This document shows, piece after piece, positions 6,294 through 28,995 of a stretch of DNA of 28,995 bases. The stretch is from Spirogloea muscicola (Eukaryota; Streptophyta; Zygnematophyceae; Spirogloeales; Spirogloeaceae), in contig WELB01000166.1 of assembly GCA_009602725.1 (NCBI GenBank), positions 258,457 to 287,451 of the forward strand. Direction: 5' to 3'. The position numbers and the translations under genes are program-made. The first letter of the stretch is position 1. Each line of letters starts with the position of its first letter. The notes under the pieces were generated by a model. That model was not told where the DNA came from. It saw only the letters and a list, made by a program, of their open reading frames with translations, and ran no database searches.

Positions 6294-6379
<86 letters not shown>
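6294..6379. repeat. (GA)n microsatellite
   Basis: Uninterrupted GA dinucleotide run of about 86 bp ending at an N (6380), so its true length is uncertain. It lies directly next to a minus-strand repeat tail (GAGGTCCGAAGGGGCC), the same position as in the run at the window end. Confidence 0.95.
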
Positions 6380-6404: not shown

Positions 6405-6703
6405 GAAAGCTGATCGAGTCTTGGCTGGTGGAACAAGGCCTCGTCAGTTGCCGTTGGGTACGCCGTTAGCGGCCTCTACGGACCTACTTCCAGGAGCCTA
6501 GCATCTCTTAGCAGGGGTTACTGAGTGATTCGTAGCTGCTTTGCTTCTCTGTGTGCTTGTTTTCCTCAGCGCTTCCCCTGGCCCCCTTCTCGTACTCTGT
6601 TCATTCTTTTTTGGGCTGGCTTTTCCAGCCCCTATTCTTAATGGGCGAGCACTTTCTTTCTTCTTTTCCAGCCCCTATCCTCAATGGGCGAGCACTTTCT
6701 TCT
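6405..6703 (+). mobile_element. LINE-like remnant: decayed ORF end, 3' tail, second tail insertion
   Basis: It begins with a degenerate ORF segment also found at 11365 (AGAAAGCTGATCGAG...), ends the frame at CAGGGGTTACTGA, then continues into the shared tail (CTTCCCCTGGCCCCCTTCTC, GGGCTGG-CTTTT-CCAGCCC, GGGCGAGCACTTTCTT). Within the CTT-rich end a further unit starting TTCCAGCCCC at 6666 repeats the last 38 bp, so a half-hairpin copy landed in the tail of the first. Confidence 0.6.
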
Positions 6704-6711
6704 TCTACGTG

Positions 6712-13224: not shown

Positions 13225-13765
13225 GAGCAAGCGGCCCGACGGATTGAAGCTGGGCTGCTCGCTCTGCTGTTCCAAGTGGGGCGAGGGCTGTGAACAGCTG
13301 CTGCTGCGGCTGCTGACTCGGGATAACCAGAAGAGAAGACGCTTCCAGTAGAGGATTACTAAGCTCCCATTCGCGTTAGTCTCTTGCATAGGAAGTGGCC
13401 CTTGCCTGAAAGGGGCAAGGGCTGTGAACGGCCAGCCCGAAAAGAAGTGACAAGGTCTGAAGGGGCCAATTAGCGCTTCCCCAAAGAAATCTAGACGCTT
13501 CCAGGAAGAAAAACGCTGCCAGGAGTGGGCGGTGGCTGTGAGAGAACATGGCTCTCCCGATGGGGGCGAGGGGCTGTGAGAGGCCAGCCCAGGAAGAAGA
13601 AGTCCCTGGCTCACGCCGTGCACTTGCGAGCCGGCCGCGCTTCGGCTGCTTCTGGGTCTCGTCGGCGTGCCTCTTCTCTCTTTTCGAAGTGGCTCTCCCA
13701 ATGGGGGCAGTGGCTGTGGTAAGCCAGCCCGAAGATATATGACAAGGTTCGAAGGGGCCAAACTA
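13225..13765 (-). mobile_element. Cluster of minus-strand hairpin-tail copies
   Basis: At least four partial copies occur, near 13268-13290, 13425-13470, 13555-13600 and 13695-13765. They are recognised by GGGGCGAGGGCTGTGA or similar followed by GGCCAGCCC, and by GACAAGGT-TGAAGGGGCC. No functional gene seen. Confidence 0.5.
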
Positions 13766-25159: not shown

Positions 25160-25345
25160 TGCCGTCTGCTCACCCGTGGTTACTAACGTCACACTGTTTA
25201 CCTTGGCAACCTTAAGCATAGGGCTTCGTTTACGCAGCCTTATGTTTTGCATCACTTGTATCCTGAACGAGAATATTCTAAATTGACTGGTGGCTGTGAG
25301 AGGCCAGCCCAAAGGAATGGACAAGGTCTGGAGGGGCCGGATTGC
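25160..25345. mobile_element. ORF-end scrap and minus-strand hairpin tail
   Basis: CTGCTCACCCGTGGTTACTA at 25167 is a decayed LLTRGY end. At 25282-25345 the minus strand reads CCTTGTCCATTCCTTTGGGC, then TGGCCTCTCACAGCCACCAG, a complete hairpin tail. Confidence 0.5.
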
Positions 25346-25390
25346 ACAGAAAGCAAGGTACTAATTGCTAAGACGGCAGCAAGGTGGCGC

Positions 25391-25575
25391 TCAGTAACTC
25401 CGAGTCAGTAAGTGCAAGTCAGAGTAACTAGCAGGCGGATAGACGTCGCCCTGATGGAACCCGGAGGCAGCAGCCAAGGCGCGGCCTGCACGCAAGTAGA
25501 CAGCGAACCATGTGTTGGCTTGACTTGACTTCCCTTTCATGAATGAAAGGGAGGCCAAGTCACCGCGCGCCTTCT
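25391..25575 (-). mobile_element. LINE-like ORF C-terminus on the minus strand
   Basis: The minus-strand frame reads VYLRAGRALAAASGFHQGDV, then YPPASYSDLHLLTRSY and a stop at 25391-25393. To its right, TTCCCTTTCATGAATGAAAG (from about 25530) is a short palindrome made of the GGCCTCCCTTTCA tail motif in both orientations. Confidence 0.6.
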
Positions 25576-25579
25576 CTCT

Positions 25580-25862
25580 CTTTACGGTGGCTACGGTACG
25601 CACTGGTCCTCCCTCATCCAGCATCTGGCCCGACTGGTTGACGCGCGTCGTTGCAGTTGGGGGGGCAGCTTGGGGCACACTAGCATTGCACAGGCATTAG
25701 TTGCATCTAACAGCATGCGATTCCTGCTTACTTGTGAGAGGCCAGCCCAAAGGCCCTTACTTCGCAGCGCTGGCAAGCTCTGGCTATTCATCAACGAGCT
25801 GGGAGCTCTGTAAGTCAGGCCACCGGGTTCTGTGGCGGTGCTCCGGGCTTCCCGACTTTTGA
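25580..25862 (+). pseudogene. LINE-like ORF C-terminus split by a 22-bp insertion
   Basis: The frame reads YGGYGTHWSSLIQHLARLVD, then GGSLGHTSIAQALVAS and MRFLLT, where it is broken. After the 22-bp unit at 25734-25755 it resumes as SQRWQALAIHQRAG, then a decayed end. It is a sister of the copy at 24729. Confidence 0.6.
25734..25755 (-). mobile_element. 22-bp half-hairpin micro-insertion with 7-bp target duplication
   Basis: GTGAGAGGCCAGCCCAAAGG plus CC, flanked by CTTACTT at 25727-25733 and 25756-25762. Its minus-strand reading CCTTTGGGCTGGCCTCTCAC equals the left arm and loop of the hairpin tail at 25282-25325. Deleting 29 bp restores the host frame. Confidence 0.75.
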
Positions 25863-26029
25863 GGGCAGCCATACAGGATGCTCTCTGACATCGGCAGCTC
25901 TACCACTCTGTCAGCCTTGACTGTAAGCCCAGCAAAGTCACCCAGGTTGATGTTTCTTCAATGCCCGCGGCAGCAGCATATGGGTGGGCCACCCTGCTGG
26001 AGCAGTGCCCGGCAAGCAAGGCAGAGGGG
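25863..26029. other. Spacer between repeat field and kinase stop
   Basis: Presumed 3' UTR of the minus-strand kinase gene; no other feature seen. Confidence 0.4.
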
Positions 26030-28455
26030 CTAAACAGCAAGTAGCTCGAGGCAGCGAAGGTCAACAATTGCAGCCAGCGAGCGCTCGGCGACGGCTGCTG
26101 CGAGAGCGTGCAAGCGGCCACGCCCGCCGCTGTCTGGTGGCACGTGCCCGGCGAGGTTCACCGCTAGCACAAAGTAGTAGAGTGTTGCGACGCGGTAGTC
26201 CTGCCAGCAATCAGTGAGCGTGTACATGCCATTGCCACCTTCTGCGACAGCCTCCAGCTCCTGTAAGTAGAGCTCCACTGCAGCAATGGAGGCGTGGGTC
26301 GCCATTAGCTCTACATGCATTTGTCAGTTGCAAGCGCTGCCAGGCCACAAAGCGGCTGCTGCAAGCATTGCTCCACATCGGTGTGTAGTGAGGCTGCGCT
26401 CACAAAGGGGGCGCTCAGCTCCACGGCGCAGGTCTGGTGCACAGCTCTGGCTAAGGAAGTAGGCGATGTCAGCAGGGCCGCGGCCAGCTCCGCAATCTCC
26501 AAAGTCCATGTACAGCAGGTTTGACTCGCCGCCGTTCCTGCTGCTGCTGCTGCTGCTGCTGCCACCACTGCCCCTGCTGCTGCTGTCCTTGGCAAGGATG
26601 GCACTAGACGCCTGCTGTCGCAACTGCGAATGCCAGGGATTGAATTTTGAGGTTAAGAGCTTACACCAGCAATCCGAGCAGAGCCGGCGCTGAACGAGGA
26701 CAGGTGGAATGATACTGACACCTCGACATTGACACCTTGAAGTTGACCAACTTTAGATGTCAACATGCGGACACTGCTCCAATGATATTTGATTGACTTT
26801 ATCAAGTCCTGCTCGAGCTCAGGGACTCGAGGGTAGGATATTGAAAGCACTCTTGCCAAAGGATCTTGCGGAGGCTTTGACTCAGCGCCTCTGAGTACGG
26901 GCCAATTCCAAGCAGTAAGGCCGCAGGCAGTCCAGATTACATCAAGCTCCAAATCAGAAGGTGGAGTAGAGCAGAAGGCACCCTGAAGAGGTTTGGCTCT
27001 TGGGAGTGGAAGGCTGGGGTCGTAAGTCTAGGGTTATGGCTAGCTATCATGCAGCACGGAGAGCATGATGGCGGCGCACCTCATACACATTGTCAAGCCG
27101 GAGGTCACCGTGGAGCAGTGTGCGGGGGTGCGAGCCAAGGTGGTCGAGCAGCTCGGCGGTGTGCTCGGGAAGTCGGGCCAGCGGCGCGCGCAGCGCTGGC
27201 GGCACAAGCCCCCCAAAGAGGGCCAGGAAGGTTGGCCACGCACTGGTGTACTCTCCTGCATCGAATGCCTTGACGCGCTCCTCGTCCAGCTTCGGCAGCC
27301 ACGCCCACCCATCGAGCTCTGGGCTGCCCCAGAACCGCGCCTGTCATGGGAGAGAGGAGAAGAAGAAGGGGGAGGGGAAGAGAGGGTGAGAGGGAGGAGA
27401 TTTGGGCATCGATCTGCGCCTCCAGCAGCATTCATTTTGCTCCATTGGCCTTGGCGGCCCGACAATGACTACAAGGCGAGAGGTGAGACGGAGAGGGCAG
27501 AAAGTGTGGCTGCAGAGAAGGAGCTGGGAGGGAGGGAGGAGGGAGGGATGTTCGAGCAACTCCTACATGCAGGCGCGCTGCGTCCAGCACGACCGTGGCT
27601 GCCTGCGGATGGGTGGCGCCTGTGACTTGGTCCAGGGGCGCAGCTTCGGTGAGGTCCTCCATCAGCAGCACCATGTGGCCGGATGCAGCGTCGTGGTGGC
27701 TGCAGTAGATAGCCGGCGTGCGCAGCGCCAGCGCCTGCGGCACCGCTGGTCCCACAGCGGCAGCGGCCAGGACCGGCGGCCGGGTGCCCATGACATTGTA
27801 GAGGCCGGCCTCCCGGGCATAGCTTCCGTTGGCTCCGGCCATCCTGCGGATCTGGACGCCTGGCACCGAGGCAGGTTGGCCGCTGCGATAGAGTCGAGGT
27901 GGGCAACGGAGTATGGTGGGAGAAGGGAAGAAGAATAATGGACAACGGAAGTGGGAGGGAGGCAGGGATGACATGACGGACCTCAGGCGAGGGGTGCGCG
28001 AACTTGGCGACGAGCGTGGCAGGCGCGCCGGCAGGCGGGGGCGCGCCCTTGTAAGCGAGCGTCAGCCGGTGCAGGAGGCTTAGGAGGCCCACGCCGCTGC
28101 CGATGCGCTGCGACGCTGTCGCCCGGACTGCCGAGCTGGGGCTGAGCGTGCCCGCCTGCTCGAGTCGGGATCAAGGTCTGGGGTCTTGGATTAGGGTTTT
28201 GGTTTGGCTTTGGGGTTCGAAACCTAAAACCCTGAACTTAAACCCTCCAAGAGAGATGCAGGAACGGGAGGAGAGGATGGAAGAGGACTGGTGGCGCACC
28301 TGCCGCAGGACCTCCGTAAGCCACTCATCAGTGACCTCCTGAGGCCGTGTCGGGAAGTCAGGCTGCGTAGTCACCTGGCTCAAGTACTTGGTTCGCGGGC
28401 CGTTGGCAAGGGACCTCAGTCGCGCCGCAGCATGGAGCAGCTCGCGGCGGGCCAT
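26030..28455 (-). CDS. CHK/EcKinase-like phosphotransferase (APH/choline-kinase fold)
   Basis: Likely ATP-dependent kinase of a small metabolite; substrate unknown. Minus-strand exons 28455-28300, 28155-27982, 27851-27567, 27340-27080, 26623-26404, 26277-26030 (TAG) give 447 codons with consistent phases and a family-typical length. Motifs in order: PTRPQEVTDEWLTEVL near residue 36; GVGLLSLLHRLTLAYKGAP and APATLVAKF (nucleotide-binding Lys); IRRMAGANGSYAREAGLYN; VLLMEDLTEAAPLDQ; catalytic loop TLLHGDLRLDNVY; metal-binding LLYMDFGDCGAGRGPADIAY; YTLTDCWQDYRVATLYYFVL near the end. ATG 28455 is the first good start and opens an Arg/Ala/Leu-rich, amphipathic segment that could be an organelle presequence. 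A Ser-rich insert separates the catalytic loop from DFG. A plant or animal viral origin is not indicated. Confidence 0.85.
26536..26586. repeat. CTG/CAG trinucleotide repeat coding poly-Ser in the kinase
   Basis: Seven CTG units, a short interruption and four more. On the minus strand they read AGC and encode a run of seven serines next to SRGSGG, between the catalytic loop and the DFG motif of the kinase. Confidence 0.85.
28156..28299 (-). other. First intron of the kinase gene with telomere-like inverted repeat
   Basis: Within the intron (28190-28247) lie ATTAGGGTTTTGGTTTGG and, opposed to it, AACCTAAAACCCTGAAC followed by TTAAACCCT. They resemble the TTTAGGG plant/algal telomere unit, in foldback arrangement. 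Confidence 0.5.

Positions 28456-28794: not shown

Positions 28795-28995
<201 letters not shown>

Follow-up and report, generated by a model that had tools for sequence, protein, structure and literature searches.

The stretch of Spirogloea muscicola DNA analyzed here has a length of 28,995 nucleotides and is referred to as the window. At 25727..25762 it contains a 22-bp segment between two copies of CTTACTT. The question raised by this locus is whether so short a segment is a real insertion and, if it is, what delivered it. The original prediction read it as one half of a hairpin whose two halves move separately after a break at the apex. The features at and around the site were as follows.

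25727..25733, no strand assigned: left copy of the target duplication, CTTACTT, read from the sequence and present as a single copy in empty-site paralogs.
25734..25755, minus strand: inserted piece GTGAGAGGCCAGCCCAAAGGCC, 22 bp, made up of the loop and one stem arm and antisense to a LINE-like 3′ tail.
25756..25762, no strand assigned: right copy of the target duplication, CTTACTT, from the sequence and the empty-site paralogs.
25583..25846, plus strand: host, an older LINE-like C-terminal ORF remnant split by the 22-bp insertion, from genome matches and alignment.
25561..27388, no strand assigned: stretch duplicated at C145 (locus L030), which carries the same insertion; 90% identity over 1833 aligned columns.

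The segment at 25727..25762 is a true 22+7 bp insertion. Positions 25500-25900 of the window were compared with the genome (153 Mb, 471 contigs), only the best candidates being scored. The host DNA at 25583-25846 was found to be a dispersed repeat. Among the 42 genome matches listed for 25500-25900, 33 span the insertion site and 9 do not. On recomputation 31 of the 33 listed spanning matches were 25-34 bp shorter than the window. Full length was seen among them only in the window itself (difference 0) and at C145:256513-256850 (difference 2). Nine spanning loci were aligned, of which eight (L031-L038) were empty and one (L030) was filled. Because the eight empty loci show an uninterrupted target, typically CGCTTACTTTGCAGCG, the gain comprises 22 bp and one 7-bp copy of the target. 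The original prediction was exact in the coordinates and sequence of the insertion and of its CTTACTT duplication. It had named polymerase slippage as an event that would undo this reading. Slippage as the source of the duplication is ruled out by the empty sites, and also because the 22-bp insert is unrelated to its flanks. The filled locus at C145 has kept 21 of the 22 insert bases while its CTTACTT duplication has decayed. Since this duplicate carries the same insert, the insertion is older than the C145 duplication. The duplicate of 25561-27388 takes in sequence beyond the LINE remnant. The L030 sequence stops at the limit of 25561..27388 and the duplication may extend further.

The insert matches an element copy at 25295-25315 exactly over its first 20 bases, or 21 with the preceding T counted. 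Twenty insert bases are surely derived from the element, and the final CC follows the family core in one independent retrieved copy (L008). The 15-mer core, GTGAGAGGCCAGCCC, has 3,054 exact occurrences in the genome while the reversed control has 0. Full copies hold this core within GGCTGTGAGAGGCCAGCCCAAAGGAATGGACAAGG, antisense to a 3′ untranslated tail that comes after ORF ends such as SDLHLLTRGY (LLTRGY). At one locus two adjacent upstream frames matched the RVT_1 profile in order. The matches were partial (positions 3-83, E 3.9e-4; positions 118-193, E 1.4e-3), both fell under the curated cut-off, and they belong to a related host family and not to the piece's own family. On these matches, upstream of a related ORF, the parent elements of the piece and of the host are called LINE-like. 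A Pfam search with three C-terminal ORFs returned nothing but one weak match under the cut-off, the L037 ORF gave no match, and PDB sequence searches gave no relevant match. LINE-like ORFs with reverse transcriptase pieces were observed at L034, L036, L037, and L119, and a C-terminal CCHC + D-X14-D pattern was noted by eye. In the L037 ORF this pattern resembles what we take to be a putative restriction-like endonuclease motif. No tRNA genes and no Rfam families at the gathering score were predicted in the window. The tail CTTTTCCAGCCCCTATCCTCAATGGGCGAGCACTTTCTTCTT is present as two tandem units of ~43 bp at 6620-6706, which are perhaps the kind of unit meant in the original prediction by the other half of the hairpin. 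The element copy nearest the insertion was mapped as follows.

25281..25507 (ends approximate), minus strand: nearby LINE-like tail copy with the 21-base identical stretch, absent at C145.

By eye this copy is flanked by at most a short (~4 bp) duplication. It is missing from the C145 duplicate, so it probably arrived later and did not act as donor.

The piece is part of a hairpin, as had been claimed, but it does not end exactly where the right arm starts. Judged by the conserved stem GGCTG/CAGCC its end overlaps the right arm by one base. When a 48-base source stretch is folded at lowest energy, the piece stops one base short of the close of an 8-base loop. This fold is a weak one (z -1.67; equaled or bettered by 12 of 200 shuffles), and the hairpin is absent from a 66-base hand-joined stretch (z -0.53; 53 of 200 shuffles at least as stable). 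Both predicted folds leave the break point unpaired, but they are weak and differ as to whether the hairpin forms. Breaks were counted genome-wide with three patterns, the four bases directly before the chosen point all being non-family. The apex itself had 36 breaks; the point two bases outward had 27 and the point two bases inward had 94. Twenty of the 94 are a loop-length variant (GCT...), leaving 74. Other copies broken at the apex, without which the original prediction would have fallen, do therefore exist, yet the apex is not enriched. The apex was rejected as a preferred break point of moving pieces, and the reading of a break at the apex is not supported as a rule.

The copies of the 15-mer were also examined individually. 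CT is lacking before GTGAG in 515 of the 3,054, and 80 of these, retrieved as unselected list heads (20/233 and 60/282), were read by eye. The larger part of the 80 keep the upstream arm and differ by single bases, making them point mutants and not breaks. A total of 120 flanks were examined, comprising the 80 CT-less copies, 33 further apex-broken copies and 7 from the set of 27 with the outer break. Fifty were tested against swapped flanks, with no clear excess of long flanking repeats, and the other 70 were read by eye. A 10-bp flanking repeat at L129 was accounted for by family homology and an 8-bp flanking repeat at L071 was within chance in the swapped-flank comparison. L082 (C24:391563-391750) and L096 (C103:284791-284978) have the same flanks around the motif over ~150 bases, pointing to a probable recent duplication. 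The search for further fragments with flanking direct repeats, suggested in the original prediction, did not reveal, among the 120 flanks, any further isolated copy of this hairpin half whose flanking duplication exceeded chance. In this sample a clean duplication accompanies this hairpin half only at the event described here and its duplicate. Hairpin cleavage may be the source of this one piece, and a parallel is described in PMC5322556.

Very small insertions with duplicated targets recur in this genome and are not exceptional. In a survey of 250,936 bases an empty counterpart elsewhere was found for 42 of 18,066 duplication-flanked candidates, compared to 9 of 43,166 control placements without duplication; by eye ~19 of the 42 survey positives are GC-rich simple sequence, and the others include a 9-bp insert with a 7-bp duplication at L113 and the 27-bp insert at 13545-13571. 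Long GA/AG dinucleotide runs are present in the window at 6294-6379 and 28885-28995, the latter touching the window end. Another k-mer survey gave 101 matches, mostly local tandem repeats. In an all-against-all gap search 1 of 16 gaps had a duplication. At L012 421 a 5-bp duplication (CTTAG) flanks 10 inserted bases, AGAGAAGGCG, which by eye resemble the 3′ terminus of the host LINE family. A second small insertion was mapped in the window.

13534..13582, no strand assigned: GGCTGTGAGAG, a 27-bp LINE tail (13545-13571) and GGCTGTGAGAG again, in a hairpin loop; 11-bp repeat.

The GGCTGTGAGAG repeat at this site may be arm homology. The pattern GGCTGTGAG N{1,31} GTGAGAGGCCAGCC, which itself requires a duplication of at least 5 bp, was found at 42 places genome-wide, all different, and the reversed control at 0. 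Compared to the intact hairpin these 42 loop insertions had inserts of 0-28 bp (median 16) and duplications of 5-16 bp (median 9). When the inserts were sorted by motif post hoc, 24 of the 42 contained a LINE tail (20 antisense, 4 sense), 5 had fewer than 4 inserted bases and 13 were classed as other. Several of the 13 resemble short tail ends. Inserts such as TCCATCCTACCCAGAT have no recognizable LINE tail. In 14 of the 42 the duplication begins at the foot of the hairpin arm (GGCTGTGAG...) and arm homology is possible. When the duplication requirement was removed 85 loop interruptions were found, 49 with a duplication of at least 5 bp and 36 with less. Shuffled middles gave 1.2 expected interruptions with a duplication of at least 5 bp compared to the 49 observed.

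The original prediction had called so small an insertion with a clean target duplication unusual for any known element. At 22 bp the piece is indeed extreme, but this genome repeatedly shows duplicated targets around inserts of 0-28 bp. The 22-bp insertion is an unusual case within a group of very small insertions, of which many are LINE tails. Catalogs of retro-insertions usually cover lengths of tens to thousands of bases, and insertions of 0-28 bp with duplicated targets are probably easily missed by repeat annotation. Even so, they disrupt reading frames and give rise to composite repeats. A literature search on very short LINE insertions with target duplications returned next to nothing, which is no proof that they are unpublished.

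The hairpin loop appears to be a favored landing site, at five to eight times the level of a control stretch. In this control, taken from the same tail with an equal-size pattern, there were 3 places (one a plain tandem duplication) per 1,467 intact copies. The loop had 42 places per ~2,539 copies, a denominator derived as 3,054 minus 515 and not directly counted (odds ratio 8.1 vs control, Fisher p = 6e-6). Removal of the 14 possible arm-homology cases left 28 loop places vs the 3 in the control (odds ratio 5.4, p = 0.0012). The ratio rests on one control stretch, and loop and control may differ in conservation. It is tentatively suggested, at rather less than an even chance, that the loops of the LINE group's own 3′ tail hairpins serve as self-made landing pads. 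Pairing of the purine-rich loop GTGAGAG with CTTCTCTTTC-type LINE RNA ends would be a likely cause of the preference. New tails of a few to ~30 bases may keep entering old hairpins and splitting them at the apex, and repeated landings may build the genome's chains of short nested repeats. Now and then an RNA broken in the loop, as proposed for the 22-bp piece, may be inserted as well. If the loop hotspot is true, the dozens of natural products in this genome would allow a direct study of how LINE reverse transcriptase starts and stops at a hairpin.

For the 22 bp itself the preferred reading, to which we give about an even chance, is an end-truncated, tail-less retro-insertion by LINE-type machinery. 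It is supported by the 7-bp duplication, the antisense fragment of a LINE tail, the empty sites and the recurring 0-28 bp insertions, and the 7-bp duplication is in the size range of the other small insertions. A LINE endonuclease would have made a staggered cut in the target. The 3′ end of the template RNA would have been within the unpaired hairpin loop, the RNA having been cleaved or degraded, and reverse transcriptase would have copied ~20 bases before release. The ends would then have been filled in and joined. The hairpin split would accordingly mark where the template RNA happened to end and no specific cleavage site. Unlike the tail-holding inserts the piece is without the LINE tail end; it stops in the hairpin, by eye ~25-30 nt short. 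On the priming side a single base is common to the target and each of 23 distinct retrieved intact copies. Matches of the last 10 bases between target and source averaged 2.0 compared to 2.6 at random window sites. With one shared base, internal priming by complementarity is not supported, and the end of a broken RNA or cDNA is the more likely starting point.

Several other origins were weighed against this retro-insertion. A staggered double-strand break could have had its 7-base overhangs filled and been closed through non-homologous end joining that took in a stray 22-bp scrap of DNA or cDNA. This is the strongest of the rivals, though somewhat unlikely. The clean 7-bp duplication and the one shared base at the left joint would suit it, the repeat is so abundant that a random scrap could well derive from it, and some of the loop insertions are not recognizable LINE tails. 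Against it stand the LINE tails in 24 of the 42 small loop insertions, which point to reverse transcription as a main source here. The piece could also be the remnant of a longer copy that was inserted with the 7-bp duplication and has since been largely deleted. The repeats of the window are indeed much rearranged. As both ends abut exact duplications and the C145 duplicate is also 22 bp, the deletion would need to have been precise and early, and such a remnant is improbable.

Specific cleavage at the apex, mobilizing both hairpin halves as separate units as the original prediction proposed, is very improbable. At a distance of two bases, breaks occur as often or more often (27; 74-94), and loop-split hairpins are largely due to other pieces inserted into the loop, against which stand the 36 other copies broken at that point and the end of the piece at a base unpaired in the predicted folds. 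We consider replication template switching from the neighboring copy 438 bp upstream the least probable origin, and a most improbable one. The 21 identical bases at 25295-25315 would provide a template, but that neighbor is missing from the C145 locus that shares the insert and the data suggest that it arrived later; it was set aside as donor on this ground. Template switching by itself also yields no target duplication.

As in filler DNA, where short fragments of other loci are joined at breaks by non-homologous end joining, the 22-bp piece is a short fragment of another locus. A clean duplicated target is less typical of filler DNA. The 5′-truncated LINE insertions are short copies with target duplications of variable length, and the 24 of 42 loop insertions with LINE tails look alike. 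The 22-bp piece shares with them a duplication of variable length and an empty site elsewhere; they keep the 3′ terminus of the element whereas the piece does not. In PMC3747384 truncated LINE copies are given as 100-1,000 bp, and the 0-28 bp insertions found here are far below this range. Stringent LINEs and SINEs are described in PMC3747384 and PMC5135761 as having stem-loop 3′ tails. A stem-loop-like 3′ tail sequence is present here too, although for this copy the hairpin is predicted to be weak.

The tailless retropseudogenes, as they are presented in PMC5322556 and mentioned in PMC3747384, are RNA-derived sequences with no 3′ tail that have target duplications and are attributed to LINE machinery. 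They are truncated at single-stranded regions of the source RNA, and internal priming is favored for them (PMC5322556). The filters given in PMC5322556 are a length of at least 30 nt, duplications of 8-35 nt and nearly complete 5′ ends. The piece differs from them in its length of 22 nt, in being an internal piece truncated at both ends, and in its exact duplication of 7 bp, one under their lower limit. Its source is a LINE-like tail and its complementarity on the priming side is one base, short of that described for them. Because it falls outside these filters it is not filed as a tailless retropseudogene. It is nevertheless a tail-less piece flanked by a target duplication, and it appears to work like one.
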